Translations under genes and position numbers: made by a program
Assembly (NCBI RefSeq): GCF_017351175.1
Contig: NZ_JAFMPN010000001.1
Location: 1 to 64,000 of the forward strand
Length of the DNA: 64,000 nt
Reading direction: 5' to 3'
Source of the DNA: Desulfovibrio sp. Huiquan2017
Lineage (GTDB): Bacteria; Desulfobacterota; Desulfovibrionia; Desulfovibrionales; Desulfovibrionaceae
Notes under the pieces: model-generated
What the model was told of the DNA's origin: nothing
The model's input: only the letters and a program-made list of their open reading frames with translations
Database searches by the model: none
Shown here: positions 56,970 through 63,621 of the stretch, piece after piece
Layout of the letters: each line of letters begins with the position of its first letter
How positions within the stretch are numbered: position 1 is the first letter of the stretch

Positions 56970-59069
56970 ATGGCCCAGCCTTCCGCCAAGACCGCGACCC
57001 CCAGAATCGACTACACCCAGTTCGCCAAACAGGGCGACATCCTCCTGGCCGGGGGTGTGGTGGTCATCCTCTTCGTGATGCTCATTCCCCTGCCCACTCC
57101 GTTCATCGACTTCATGCTCTCGGTTTCCATTTCCCTGGGGCTGGTCATTCTGGTCACCTCCATGTTCATGACCTCGCCGCTCGAATTCTCCATCTTCCCG
57201 TCGCTGCTGCTGGTCACCACCCTGCTCCGGCTGGCGCTGAACGTGGCCACCACCCGGGCCATCCTGCTGCACGGCGACGAGGGTACTTCAGCCGCAGGCT
57301 CGGTCATCCAAAGTTTCGGAGAATTCGTCGTCGGAGGCAATTACGTCATCGGCATCGTCATTTTCATGATCCTGTTCATCCTGAACAAGACCGTCATCGT
57401 CAGCGGTACCACCCGCATCGCCGAGGTAGCCGCCCGCTTCACCCTGGACGCCATGCCGGGCAAACAGATGGCCATTGAGGCCGACCTCAACGCCGGACTC
57501 ATCGACGAGGAGCAAGCCACCCAAAAACGCGAGAACTTGCGTCGCGAGGCAGACTTTTACGGTGCCATGGACGGTGCGGGCAAGTTCGTGTCCGGAGACG
57601 TCAAGGCCGGCCTGATGATTACGGCCATCAACATCATCGGCGGCTTCCTCATCGGCGTGCTGCAAAAGGACATGCCGTGGATGGACGCGGCCCAGACCTA
57701 CACCTTACTGACCATCGGTGACGGCCTGGTGGCCACCATTCCCTCGCTGATCATCTCCACGTCGGCGGGTATCATTGTCTCCCGCGCGGCCGCCGAGGCC
57801 AAGATGGGCGAGGAATTCATCGGCCAGCTCTCCTACCACCACCGGGCACTCAAGCTTGTTTCCGGCATCCTGGTGATCTTCGGCATCGTCCCGGGCATGC
57901 CGACCATCCCGTTCCTGACCCTGGCCGCCATCGTCTTCAGCGTGGCGCGGATCTCATCGCGCCAACAGCACCATCTTACCGTGACCCAGGACGAAAAGGA
58001 GCAGAAGCAGCCCACCACCTTGGATACTCCCGAGGAGGTCCAGGCCCTGCTGCCGCTCGATCAACTGGAGCTGGAAGTGGGCTACGGGCTTATTCCGCTG
58101 GTGGACGAGGAACAGAGCGGCAACCTGCTCTCGCGCATCCGCTCCATCCGCCGCCAGTTCGCCCTGGACATGGGCGTTGTCGTCCCGTCCCTGCATCTGC
58201 GCGACAACCTCCAACTCAAGCCCGGCGAATACCGCGTGCTCATCAAGGGCAACCCGGTGGCCGGTGCGGAACTGCTTATCGACCATTATCTGGCCATGGA
58301 CCCGGGCGACGCCAAGCACCGTATAGAGGGCGTGGACACCGTGGAACCCGCCTTCAACCTCCCGGCCGTCTGGATTCCCGAGGCCCAGAAGGAAGAGGCC
58401 ATGCTGGCTGGCTACACCGTGGTCGATCCGTCCACGGTCATCGCCACCCATCTGACCGAAATATTCCGCCGCAACCTGCACGAATTCCTCGGCCGCCAGG
58501 AGACGCAGGAACTGCTCAACAACCTGTCCAAGCGCGCGCCCAAGGCCGTGGAATCCCTGGTGCCCGCCGTGCTCAGCCTGGGCGGTGTGCAGAAGGTTCT
58601 CCAGGGACTGGTCCAGGAAAACGTATCCATTCGCGACCTGCTGACCATCGTGGAGACACTGGCCGATTACGGCACGGCCACCCAGGATCCGCACCAGCTC
58701 ACGGAGTACGTCCGCGCCCGCATGGGCCGGACCATCGTCAAGCCATATCTCGGCGACAACGGGGTGTTGCCGATCATCACCCTGAACCCGCAGATCGACG
58801 AAATCCTGAACAACGCCATGCGCCCGGCCGAACAGGGCGGTTATCTGGCCTTGGAACCGGGCATGGCCCAGCAGATCATCCAGGCCATCAACCGCTCCAC
58901 AGAGGATGCCATGGTGGCCGACGGCCAGCCCATCCTGCTGGTCACCCCGCAACTCCGCTCCCAGCTCGCACAGCTCCTGACCCGGTTCATCCCGACCCTG
59001 CCGGTGATCTCCCAGGCCGAGATTCCGGCGGACGTCAAAATTCAGTCAGTCGCAACCGTTGAACTCTAG
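56970..59069 (+). CDS. flhA: Flagellar export apparatus protein FlhA
   Basis: The largest export-gate subunit and docking site for export substrates and chaperones. The 699 residues have about eight helices in the first half (30-330). They also carry the FHIPEP-type loop, here LLRLALNVATTRAILLHGDEG followed by GTTRIAEVAARFTLDAMPGKQMAIEADLNAG. The cytoplasmic domain fills the second half, with YVRARMGRTIV and LNPQIDEIL. The length is normal. It follows flhB and precedes flhF by nine bases. Confidence 0.97.
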   Translation: MAQPSAKTATPRIDYTQFAKQGDILLAGGVVVILFVMLIPLPTPFIDFMLSVSISLGLVILVTSMFMTSPLEFSIFPSLLLVTTLLRLALNVATTRAILLHGDEGTSAAGSVIQSFGEFVVGGNYVIGIVIFMILFILNKTVIVSGTTRIAEVAARFTLDAMPGKQMAIEADLNAGLIDEEQATQKRENLRREADFYGAMDGAGKFVSGDVKAGLMITAINIIGGFLIGVLQKDMPWMDAAQTYTLLTIGDGLVATIPSLIISTSAGIIVSRAAAEAKMGEEFIGQLSYHHRALKLVSGILVIFGIVPGMPTIPFLTLAAIVFSVARISSRQQHHLTVTQDEKEQKQPTTLDTPEEVQALLPLDQLELEVGYGLIPLVDEEQSGNLLSRIRSIRRQFALDMGVVVPSLHLRDNLQLKPGEYRVLIKGNPVAGAELLIDHYLAMDPGDAKHRIEGVDTVEPAFNLPAVWIPEAQKEEAMLAGYTVVDPSTVIATHLTEIFRRNLHEFLGRQETQELLNNLSKRAPKAVESLVPAVLSLGGVQKVLQGLVQENVSIRDLLTIVETLADYGTATQDPHQLTEYVRARMGRTIVKPYLGDNGVLPIITLNPQIDEILNNAMRPAEQGGYLALEPGMAQQIIQAINRSTEDAMVADGQPILLVTPQLRSQLAQLLTRFIPTLPVISQAEIPADVKIQSVATVEL

Positions 59070-60171: not shown

Positions 60172-60999
60172 ATGAGTTCGAATCTCCCCCTGGTCCTCTC
60201 CGTCACCTCCGGCAAAGGAGGCGTCGGCAAGACCAACATGTCGGTCAACCTGGCCTACTCCCTCAGCGCCGCGGGCAAGAACGTGGTCCTGCTGGACGCC
60301 GACCTGGGATTGGCCAACGTGGACGTCATCCTCGGTCTTGCCCCTGAGCACAATCTCTTCCACCTGTTCCACGAAGACATGACCCTGGATAAAATCCTCT
60401 TCGATACCCCCTACGGCTTCCGTATCCTCCCCGCCTCCTCGGGCGTGAGCGACATGGTCAATCTGGACAAGGGCCAAAAATTGGACCTCCTGGACGCCAT
60501 GGACTCTCTGGAAGACAGCGTGGACTACCTCATCGTGGACACGGGCGCGGGCATCAACGACAACGTACTCTATTTCAATCTGGCCGTGCAGGAACGGCTC
60601 CTCATCATCACCCCGGAGCCTACATCCCTGACCGACGCCTATGCGCTCATCAAGGTTCTCAAGCTACATCACGGCGTGGAAAAATTCCGCGTGCTGGTGA
60701 ACATGGTCAAGGACGTGAACATGGCCCGGGAGGTCTATCTCAAGCTCCTGAACGCCTGCGACCACTTTCTTGATGGCATTTCGCTCGACCTGGTGGGCTT
60801 CGTGCCCTATGACCAGAACGTGCGCAACGCGGTCATCGCGCAAACCCCGTTCTGTCACAAATTTCCCAAGACCCCGGCCAGCGTCGCTGTCCGGCAGACG
60901 GCCCAGAAGGTCAAAAACTGGCAGGTAACCCCCAACACCGATGGCAATATTAAATTCTTCTGGAAAAAGCTCCTCTTCCAGGAACGATCCGTGGCTTGA
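60172..60999 (+). CDS. flhG: MinD-like ATPase FlhG (FleN), flagellar number regulator
   Basis: A ParA/MinD-family ATPase that limits the number of flagella and acts on FlhF. The 275 residues have the deviant Walker A SGKGGVGKT at 13-21, VLLDADLGLANVDVILG for switch I, and the Walker B region YLIVDTGAGI. The PEPTSLTDAYALIKVL stretch is typical of FlhG. The C-terminal amphipathic helix that binds membranes is less clear; the tail KFFWKKLLFQ could serve. It overlaps fliA by 59 bases. Confidence 0.95.
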   Translation: MSSNLPLVLSVTSGKGGVGKTNMSVNLAYSLSAAGKNVVLLDADLGLANVDVILGLAPEHNLFHLFHEDMTLDKILFDTPYGFRILPASSGVSDMVNLDKGQKLDLLDAMDSLEDSVDYLIVDTGAGINDNVLYFNLAVQERLLIITPEPTSLTDAYALIKVLKLHHGVEKFRVLVNMVKDVNMAREVYLKLLNACDHFLDGISLDLVGFVPYDQNVRNAVIAQTPFCHKFPKTPASVAVRQTAQKVKNWQVTPNTDGNIKFFWKKLLFQERSVA

Positions 61000-61726
61000 G
61001 CTGGAACAGGGCGTCAAGCATTGGGACGATTTTTCCCCGCGCGACCGGGAAAACATCGTCCGCTACTATGCGCCCAAAATCCGGATTCTGGCGTTGCGGC
61101 TCAAAGCCAAGTTGCCCCAAAGTGTGGAGCTCAACGAGCTCATCAGTGCGGGCAGCCTCGGGCTTCTGGACGCCTTGGGGAAATTCAACCCGGAATTGGG
61201 GATCAAATTCGACACCTATTCGGAAAACCGGATCAAGGGGGCCATGCTCGACGAGCTGCGACGCATGGACTGGTTTTCCCGGGGGCTGCGGCAAAAGGTC
61301 AAGGTGCTGGAGGACTCCATGCGCCGGATCGAACACGAGACGGGATCCCCGGCCACGCCGGAACAGCTCTGCGCCCATACCGGCATGTCCGACAAGGAAG
61401 TCCAGCAGGGACTCGAAGCCCTGAACAATCAGGTATGTCTCAGTCTCGACACGTTCCAGGAAAACCTCATCAGCCAAAAGAAGATGACCGACAACGAACC
61501 GTTCCAGTCGGCCGCCTTCCAGGAGATTGTTGACAAAGTAGCCAATCTAATTGAAGAATTGACGCCAAGAGAAAAATTGGTCATATCTCTCTACTACGGG
61601 GAGGAGTTGAACATGAAGGAGACGGCCGAAGTTATGGACATAACCGAGGGGCGCGTCTCGCAACTCCACTCTCAAGCATTGAATAAATTAAGAAAAACGT
61701 TCAGAGCTCGTTACGAAAACGAGTAG
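60941..61726 (+). CDS. fliA: Flagellar sigma factor sigma-28 (FliA)
   Basis: Directs transcription of late flagellar and chemotaxis genes. The 261 residues have region 2 (LNELISAGSLGLLDALGKF and KFDTYSENRIKGAMLDELR), region 3 and region 4 with the helix-turn-helix MKETAEVMDITEGRVSQLHSQAL. The only usual start in frame before region 1/2 is the ATG at 60941, inside flhG; the first 59 bases are thus shared. A purine-rich GGAAAAAG lies inside the coding start, not before it, so initiation may depend on translation of flhG. Confidence 0.95.
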   Translation: MAILNSSGKSSSSRNDPWLELEQGVKHWDDFSPRDRENIVRYYAPKIRILALRLKAKLPQSVELNELISAGSLGLLDALGKFNPELGIKFDTYSENRIKGAMLDELRRMDWFSRGLRQKVKVLEDSMRRIEHETGSPATPEQLCAHTGMSDKEVQQGLEALNNQVCLSLDTFQENLISQKKMTDNEPFQSAAFQEIVDKVANLIEELTPREKLVISLYYGEELNMKETAEVMDITEGRVSQLHSQALNKLRKTFRARYENE

Positions 61727-61749: not shown

Positions 61750-62130
61750 ATGGCTTACGACACCAACATGCGCGTTCTGGTTGTAGACGATTTTTCCACG
61801 ATGCGTAAAATCATCAAAAACATCCTGCGCCAACTGGGTTTCAACAACATCGTCGAGGCCGATGACGGCTCCACCGCCTGGGAAGTGCTCAACAAGGACA
61901 ATATCGATTTCATCGTTTCCGACTGGAACATGCCGACCATGTCCGGCATCGAACTGCTCCGCAAGGTTCGCGCCAGCGAGGAGTACTCCGACATCCCCTT
62001 CCTGATGGTCACCGCCGAGGCCCAGCAGGAAAATATCATCGAGGCAGTGCAGGCCAAGGTGTCCAATTACATCGTCAAGCCGTTCACTCCCGAAACACTG
62101 GGCCAGAAGATCGACAAAATCTTCAGCTAA
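61750..62130 (+). CDS. cheY: Chemotaxis response regulator CheY
   Basis: A 126-residue single receiver domain that, when phosphorylated, binds the flagellar motor switch. D13 and D14 form the metal pocket, D58 in VSDWNMPTMSG is the phospho-acceptor, T88 the signalling threonine and K110 the conserved lysine. NNIVEADDGSTAWEVL is a typical helix-2/strand-2 stretch. The strong AAAGGAG site and 23-base gap after fliA place it in the operon. CheA and other che genes are not in the window. Confidence 0.96.
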   Translation: MAYDTNMRVLVVDDFSTMRKIIKNILRQLGFNNIVEADDGSTAWEVLNKDNIDFIVSDWNMPTMSGIELLRKVRASEEYSDIPFLMVTAEAQQENIIEAVQAKVSNYIVKPFTPETLGQKIDKIFS

Positions 62131-62156: not shown

Positions 62157-62861
62157 ATGGTCTTGCTCGTCCCGGATGATGCCGATGATGTAACCGACGC
62201 TCCCGCGGGACAGCGGAAAGCGGAGTTGGACGATGCCGCGGCGAGTCGGGCCACCCAGAAGGTCGATCTCGACCTCGACGATGCCCCATTCCTTGAAGAC
62301 GAGGACGAAGAGGAGGAGATCGAGGCCACCGAGAGCGAAATCCCGTTCCCGACCGAGGACGACGCCAAGCCCAAGCCGGGCCTGGTCGCCCTGCTCAAGA
62401 ACAAATTCGTTCTCATGGGGATGGGCGTCATCCTGATCCTGCTGGTCATCATCGCCATCCTCCTTTTGCGCGAACCCGAATCGCCACCTCCTCCGCCGCC
62501 CGCGCCCGCCGAGGAAGCGGCTGCCCCGGAACCGGAACCAGCGGTCCCGGAAACGCCGCAGGTCCTCATCAAGTTGGATCCGTTCCTCATCGAACAACGG
62601 GACGAATCAGGCAAGATCCGCTTCCTTGAGATCACTCTCCTCCTGTCCACCGAGGACGAGGGGCTGGCCAGGCAATTCAAACAGGAGACGTTTGCCGTAC
62701 GCAACGCCCTGTACTACTATCTCAAGAATAAGGATCTCCAATTTCTGTCCGATGAGAAGAACAGCGAGAAGTTAAAAAATGAATTACTGGTCATCGTCAA
62801 CCAGTACATGGGGTTTGGTCAGTTCGATACGTTGATGTTCGAACAATATCTTGTGAGGTGA
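62157..62861 (+). CDS. fliL: Flagellar basal-body-associated protein FliL
   Basis: A single-pass inner-membrane protein that surrounds the stator and helps torque. The 234 residues start with a long acidic cytoplasmic part rich in D/E (about 45-65). One helix (about 86-106) follows, then a proline/alanine linker (PPPPPPAPAEEAA) and a periplasmic stomatin-like FliL domain with LIKLDPFLIEQRDESGKIRFLEITLLL. The acidic N-terminus of about 80 residues is much longer than in E. coli. It precedes the next small gene by three bases. Confidence 0.9.
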   Translation: MVLLVPDDADDVTDAPAGQRKAELDDAAASRATQKVDLDLDDAPFLEDEDEEEEIEATESEIPFPTEDDAKPKPGLVALLKNKFVLMGMGVILILLVIIAILLLREPESPPPPPPAPAEEAAAPEPEPAVPETPQVLIKLDPFLIEQRDESGKIRFLEITLLLSTEDEGLARQFKQETFAVRNALYYYLKNKDLQFLSDEKNSEKLKNELLVIVNQYMGFGQFDTLMFEQYLVR

Positions 62862-62864
62862 TCC

Positions 62865-63191
62865 ATGAGCTCCACGCCGTTGGACCTGCCCATACTCATT
62901 TCCCAACTGCCCTTCGTGCAGAAGATCGCCCACGCGGAAAAGGCTACGCCCGAGATCAACCAACAACTCTTCGGTCCGTTGATCCAAGAACAGCTCCGTC
63001 AGCGCGAGGGCACGGTGCAGAAGGTCCAGGAGAACGCCGCCGCCGATCCCGTGGACCGCGACGGCCATAATGATCAGCGGCAGGAAGCCTCTTCCGAGCG
63101 CAAAGGATGCGCCCCCGAAGAGGAAGACCCGGATGCCGGGGCCTCCGACGGGTCCCCCTGGTCCGGCAACATCGTCAACGTCAAGATCTGA
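62865..63191 (+). CDS. Small soluble protein in the flagellar operon, function unknown
   Basis: A 108-residue hydrophilic protein with no helix across the membrane. Residues 1-55 form a helical part with FVQKIAHAEKATPEINQQLFG and a QEQLRQREGTVQKVQEN heptad-like stretch. The rest is disordered and acidic (EEEDPDAGASDG), ending NIVNVKI. Short proteins with a similar leading helix and a valine/glutamine pattern occur in flagellar clusters of other bacteria, but I cannot name a family. It follows fliL by three bases. Confidence 0.65.
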   Translation: MSSTPLDLPILISQLPFVQKIAHAEKATPEINQQLFGPLIQEQLRQREGTVQKVQENAAADPVDRDGHNDQRQEASSERKGCAPEEEDPDAGASDGSPWSGNIVNVKI

Positions 63192-63213: not shown

Positions 63214-63621
63214 ATGTCCAATATGCTCATCATTCTCTTCACCCTCAGCGAGGTCGTCTTGCTCGGCGTGGTTATTGTCTTCTTCCTCCGGCTGCGCAAA
63301 TCCGAGATCCTGCTGTCCGGCCTGCACGCCAAGCAGGAGGAGTTCATCAAACGCCTCCAATTCAATACCCAGCTCGAAAATGAACTGGTGGCCACCTTCG
63401 AACAGCGGCAGCAGGAACTGGTCGCCTTGAACACCCAACTCGAAAACAAGGCCACCGAACTCAGGAAGCTGGTCAGGCTCGCCAACGAATACGCCAAGTC
63501 TCCACAATTCATGCGTGAAATCATCATCCAAGGACACCGTTCCGGCAAGACCGCCACGCAACTCGCCAAGTCATCCGGCCTCGGGCTGGACGAAGTCGAA
63601 CTGATCATCGACCAATCCTAG
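63214..63621 (+). CDS. Membrane protein with DUF2802-like C-terminus (FipA-like candidate)
   Basis: A 135-residue protein. A single N-terminal helix (about 5-25) is followed by a coiled coil (about 38-90) and a C-terminal segment of about 35 residues. That segment resembles the DUF2802 domain: G111-K-T-A-T, then SGLGLDEVELI with E127 and L130. The G-x15-E-x2-L spacing is that of FipA, a membrane factor that recruits FlhF to the cell pole in gammaproteobacteria (as I recall the published work). The N-out, C-in layout also fits. It sits four genes after flhG. The start at 63214 gives the helix at once; the frame further upstream is rejected. Confidence 0.6.
   Translation: MSNMLIILFTLSEVVLLGVVIVFFLRLRKSEILLSGLHAKQEEFIKRLQFNTQLENELVATFEQRQQELVALNTQLENKATELRKLVRLANEYAKSPQFMREIIIQGHRSGKTATQLAKSSGLGLDEVELIIDQS

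Follow-up and report, generated by a model that had tools for sequence, protein, structure and literature searches.

A coiled-coil membrane protein encoded with flhF in Desulfovibrionales and its probable kinship with FipA and SwrB

Near the 3′ end of the flhB-flhA-flhF-flhG-fliA-cheY-fliL operon of Desulfovibrio sp. Huiquan2017, whose nearest relatives carry the name Pseudodesulfovibrio, a gene encodes a 135-residue protein that is best explained as the Desulfovibrionales representative of a single FlhF-linked superfamily of membrane proteins, to which FipA (DUF2802, gammaproteobacteria) and SwrB (DUF6115, Bacillota) also belong, and as working by the mechanism proposed below (probability about 0.6). 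The evidence computed here comprises homology, a common architecture, conserved residues, gene position and co-occurrence with FlhF. Judged from its sequence, the protein appears to add a new branch to a family in which FipA and SwrB are united, and it is most likely a membrane-anchored partner of FlhF.

The window, i.e. the whole stretch of 64,000 nucleotides that was analysed, contains the gene in the same run as flhF and flhG (Table 1), as the preliminary description had stated. The neighbouring 108-residue protein had no match in Pfam, NCBIfam or PHROGs and carries the pattern QLPFVQKIAH. No Pfam match was obtained for the in-window part of the 275-residue gene that closes the run. Several loci of other Desulfobacterota contain a second FlhB-like stretch, about 1.7 kb downstream of the family gene.

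Table 1. Flagellar gene run at the end of the window
Feature	Position	Strand	Basis or description
flhA	56970..59069	+	tblastn to flhA of other phyla, 44-46% identity
flhF, 358 aa	59079..60155	+	NCBIfam FlhF E 5.2e-35, below the model's own cut-off; motif survey and alignment
flhG, MinD/ParA-type ATPase	60172..60999	+	MinD-type ATPase matches; without N-terminal DQAxxLR
fliA (sigma-28)	60941..61726	+	ORF call and synteny
cheY	61750..62130	+	60-62% identity to cheY of Aeromonas and Pseudomonas
fliL-like protein	62157..62861	+	Pfam FliL 5.7e-11
108-aa protein, no assigned function	62865..63191	+	syntenic in many Desulfovibrionales
Studied gene, 135 aa	63214..63621	+	membrane helix at about 5-27, then a coiled coil up to about 94; C-terminal domain of three helices at 97-134, containing G111, E127 and L130
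Next gene, last of run, 275 aa in genome	63631..64000, cut by window end	+	locus survey (L252:832-1659)

The open reading frame starts with ATG and its coding residues span 63214-63618. A hydrophobic segment of 19 residues begins at position 5 (mean hydropathy 2.8), and AlphaFold2, supplied with 61 sequences, predicted a helix at residues 2-94 followed by three shorter ones at 97-109, 114-121 and 125-134 (mean pLDDT 91.9), the long helix being modelled as the membrane part plus the coiled coil. Hydropathy and model together give the architecture of FipA, namely a single N-terminal membrane helix, a coiled coil and a predicted cytoplasmic C-terminal domain. The G-x15-E-x2-L pattern occurs once, as G111, E127 and L130. 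By itself this motif is weak evidence, since at least one copy arises by chance in 9.2% of whole-protein shuffles (1.6% when residues 95-135 are shuffled); it is meaningful here because the orthologues conserve its residues, with G111 in 45/45, E127 in 45/45 and L130 in 40/45 sequences of the window family alignment (A1, 45 orthologues), and in 60/61, 61/61 and 60/61 sequences, respectively, of a second alignment (A3). The reading frame, the model and the alignments hence confirm the earlier account of 135 residues with one N-terminal helix, a coiled coil and three residues in the FipA spacing.

Against Pfam, the protein matched DUF6115 with an E-value of 7e-5 and 23.7 bits (cut-off 27) and DUF2802 with an E-value of 0.0037 and 17.8 bits (cut-off 33.5), and so belongs formally to neither family. 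The DUF2802/FipA label of the preliminary description was consequently dropped, the score being under the Pfam cut-off, while a distant kinship with FipA stands through the intermediate set presented below. As the DUF6115 match is slightly better than the DUF2802 match, FipA appears, in sequence terms, to be no nearer a relative of the protein than Bacillus SwrB is. Among the 45 orthologues, 24 matched DUF6115 and 23 DUF2802 at an E-value of 0.01; the best DUF2802 match reached 2.1e-6, by which the refuting condition of the preliminary description, lack of a meaningful DUF2802 match, is only half avoided, and one orthologue (L087) cleared the DUF6115 cut-off with 28.4 bits. A search of the source genome with PF10975 gave no match at 1e-3. 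FipA of P. aeruginosa and of Aeromonas match DUF2802 at 5e-23 and 2e-25, and the B. velezensis gene between sigD and rpsB, which is the place of SwrB, matches DUF6115 at 2.2e-8, over the cut-off. In NCBIfam there were stray matches only; in PHROGs the C-terminal domain weakly matched a single family, phrog_21636, which is uncharacterised (E 0.00028).

Direct comparison of the window-family profile with a single FipA or SwrB sequence was too weak alone (12-15%), and an intermediate set was therefore used: A2, a wider Desulfobacterota set of 39 members that takes in two Desulfovibrionales loci with a canonical FlhF besides members from other classes. With hhalign, A1 and A2 aligned end to end over 139 columns (99.4% probability, E 9.6e-22; reversed-alignment control, 3%). 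Within A2, 33/39 members match DUF6115 (best 5.8e-10), 30/39 match DUF2802 (best 2.5e-11, one member reaching 44 bits, above the cut-off) and all 39 contain G-x15-E. When seven reference flagellar loci, with 594 ORFs in all, were searched with the A2 profile, B. velezensis SwrB came first (3.1e-14), followed by FipA of Aeromonas (1.4e-8) and of Pseudomonas (2.3e-7) and by a clostridial Acetoanaerobium gene downstream of fliA (6.9e-5), the next ORF standing at 0.01. The same four proteins were on top with the window family's own profile, and all four share G-x15-E-x2-L. The A2 profile gave 39-89 bits to 71 Desulfovibrionales sequences, at most 15.7 to 710 segment-wise shuffles and at most 6.7 to reversals. 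No convincing family member was found on the flagellar megaplasmids of Pontibacillus, Rossellomorea and Priestia. This full-length relationship through intermediate sequences, with its controls, suggests that the protein is a distant relative of both FipA and SwrB and represents the Desulfovibrionales branch of one family.

Orthologues are present in 83 of the 98 genomes of the order Desulfovibrionales, usually adjoining flhF. Among 40 diverse loci, flhF is found in cis in 34, in the order flhB-flhA-flhF-flhG-fliA-(cheY)-fliL-(108-aa gene)-studied gene-next gene; of the remaining six, three are cut off by the end of the contig, and in L066, L076 and L090 the gene is apart from flhF. The latter three could serve to separate a functional link with flhF from operon inertia. 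Outside the window's family, the window-family profile detects distant members in 38 genomes of the same phylum, and 28 of the 37 loci from other classes, which were picked by sequence and not by position, contain flhF within the stretch examined, arranged as fliR-flhB-flhA-flhF-flhG-fliA-(cheY)-family gene. The expectation that the gene stays near flhF in related genomes was thus borne out in both sets.

The gene is absent from 15/98 Desulfovibrionales genomes, a count that includes one (G038) whose contig ends inside fliL, and most of these genomes are also devoid of FlhF. Five of the 15 (G062, G068, G084, G088 and G092; loci L246-L248, L250 and L251) combine a canonical 440-residue FlhF with a diverged family member whose gene immediately follows fliA, and the rest gave no recognisable FlhF, only Ffh/FtsY-type matches. 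Three of the five loci are only partly independent of the profile: L247 and L250, which were left out of the building of the wider profile, score 9e-11 and 2e-7, and L251 bears the same match as L248, which was included. Flagellar rod/hook-type genes come next after the diverged member. Some Desulfovibrionales thus have another type of flagellar cluster, which may reflect replacement of their flagellar system.

In 375 genomes that belong to the phylum but not to the window's family, a survey (homologue at E 1e-6, FlhF at E 1e-38) counted 138 with both proteins, 43 with FlhF only, 34 with the homologue only and 160 with neither, an odds ratio of about 15; as genomes that are related do not count as independent observations, the Fisher p-value should not be taken at face value. 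The 34 homologue-only genomes are an overestimate, since the FlhF threshold misses divergent FlhF such as that of G132, where flhF lies beside the gene. With the wider profile, 33 of the 181 FlhF genomes gave no homologue. Of 14 control genomes, only those of B. subtilis and T. maritima gave FlhF at E 1e-38; DUF6115 was present in both of them and in Synechococcus. The gene is hence located downstream of flhF-flhG-fliA and co-occurs with FlhF/FlhG, a context of the FipA type.

The FlhF of the window has retained the FliG-binding N-terminus, the P-loop and TKLD, and lacks DTYR, DTAG and GQxVP. Simple pattern counts, complemented by an alignment, gave a similar picture for 92 Desulfovibrionales FlhF sequences (DTYR and GQxVP 0/92 each, DTAG 12, P-loop 83, TKLD 74), and the DQAxxL motif by which FlhG stimulates FlhF is in none of the Desulfovibrionales FlhG sequences. 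These altered forms were seen in the window and in loci L059-L098 and L129-L208. In the three canonical-FlhF loci surveyed from the same order, GQxVP and DQAxxL are present in 3/3 and DTAG in 2/3, and the other Desulfobacterota have DTYR in 15/28, DTAG in 19/28 and DQAxxL in 16/28. With most GTPase motifs of FlhF and the activating motif of FlhG gone, the putative partner of the 135-residue protein is altered, a pattern suggestive of a coupled loss of the GTPase cycle run by FlhF and FlhG. FipA has been proposed to stabilise GTP-bound FlhF; if the motif loss is right, this cannot be the whole job of the family member in Desulfovibrionales.

FipA (DUF2802, PF10975) brings FlhF to the pole in Vibrio parahaemolyticus, Pseudomonas putida and Shewanella putrefaciens; its G110A and L129A variants abolish FlhF binding, E126A does not, and its function is abolished without the membrane helix (PMC11620751). 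It resembles our protein in size, N-terminal membrane helix, coiled coil, a C-terminal domain with G-x15-E-x2-L and a gene downstream of flhA-flhF-flhG-fliA-cheY. It differs in that our protein falls well short of the DUF2802 cut-off and is closer in sequence to the Desulfobacterota set, and in that the FlhF here, a putative ligand, is devoid of canonical GTPase motifs. SwrB/YlxL (DUF6115, PF19610) of Bacillus likewise has an N-terminal membrane helix, a charged/coiled middle, which is longer and less regular than in our protein, and the same C-terminal pattern (G124, E140 and L143 in B. velezensis), which contains the residues probed for FlhF binding in FipA. The flhF operon of Bacillus closes with swrB, immediately behind sigD/fliA, and the studied gene likewise has its place behind the sigma-28 gene towards the end of its operon. 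SwrB is known for export activation in peritrichous cells, and our protein scores below the cut-off of its family. The polar landmark HubP/FimV also anchors FlhF at the membrane/pole and is, unlike our protein, a large LysM/TPR protein. FipA was reported to be restricted to gammaproteobacteria with polar flagella and to be missing from Bacillus (PMC11620751). SwrB is unmentioned in the portion of the main text considered (PMC11620751), and a search index lists three mentions in that record, probably in other parts such as peer review; the FipA-SwrB link may already have been raised by someone. A 2025 review includes FipA and not SwrB, and a 2026 SwrB paper mentions neither FipA nor FlhF.

We infer the following chain of dimerisation, FlhF binding and nucleation. 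The N-terminal helix would keep the protein in the inner membrane and the coiled coil would make it dimeric, while the C-terminal three-helix domain would bind FlhF via a surface made by G111 and L130. FlhF held in this way would capture FliG by its N-terminal domain, which would help the MS-ring/C-ring nucleus to form and export to start. FlhF contacts FliG through its first 60 residues and the landmark HubP through its GTPase part (PMC11236974). A membrane dimer holding FlhF, and FliG through FlhF, would fit the observations on FipA and SwrB alike.

A SwrB-like role, in which the protein would be a basal-body maturation factor that acts through FliF/FliG/FliP to activate the export apparatus and does not touch FlhF directly, draws on DUF6115 being the best Pfam match and the family to which B. 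velezensis SwrB belongs above the cut-off, and on the GTPase-degenerate look of Desulfovibrionales FlhF. SwrB itself promotes basal-body maturation and the activation of flagellar export, and the need for it is bypassed by a gain-of-function allele of FliG (PMC4526659). We nevertheless consider this role less likely, given the linkage of the gene to flhF both in cis and by co-occurrence and the conservation of the residues that FipA requires for FlhF binding.

The shape of the C-terminal domain raises two further readings. It might be a helix-turn-helix acting on DNA, the protein then being a membrane-tethered regulator: Foldseek against the PDB gave helix-turn-helix domains as nearest matches (best E 0.068), and sigma-70 region 4 is weakly matched by 9/39 of the wider members. 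None of the Foldseek matches is significant, however, the same domain of FipA binds FlhF and the gene keeps a fixed position in a flagellar assembly operon, which makes DNA binding very improbable. A PDB sequence search with the wider profile was uninformative, with coiled-coil, designed-repeat and helix-turn-helix matches only. Even more strongly disfavoured is a chance likeness to FipA and SwrB, produced by a coiled coil and a common helix-turn-helix-like shape. The motif alone does turn up in 9% of shuffles, but the shuffle and reversal controls, the rank of the positional counterparts as the top four of 594 ORFs, and the E-values of about 0.01 or worse that the wider profile gives to fliA ORFs of the same loci, which have their own helix-turn-helix, all speak against it.

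The claim that a FipA-FlhF module explains polar placement in these bacteria is not supported in that form: SwrB serves peritrichous Bacillus and FlhF has lost most GTPase motifs, so the presence of the protein does not by itself account for polarity, and the gammaproteobacterial scheme is not simply transferable, given the motif losses in both FlhF and FlhG. Tentatively, we would go further and see FipA and SwrB as branches of one ancient family of FlhF partners, in which SwrB of peritrichous Bacillus would bind FlhF by the same residues, the Desulfovibrionales partnership would have outlived the FlhF GTP cycle, and the core job would be membrane anchoring of FlhF/FliG and not control of the nucleotide state. 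The Desulfovibrionales would be a lineage that keeps the partner protein while the GTPase motifs of FlhF are lost. If the family spans SwrB and the Desulfobacterota, the recruitment of FlhF and the role of SwrB become one question and, if this is true, both could be tested with the point mutants already defined in FipA.
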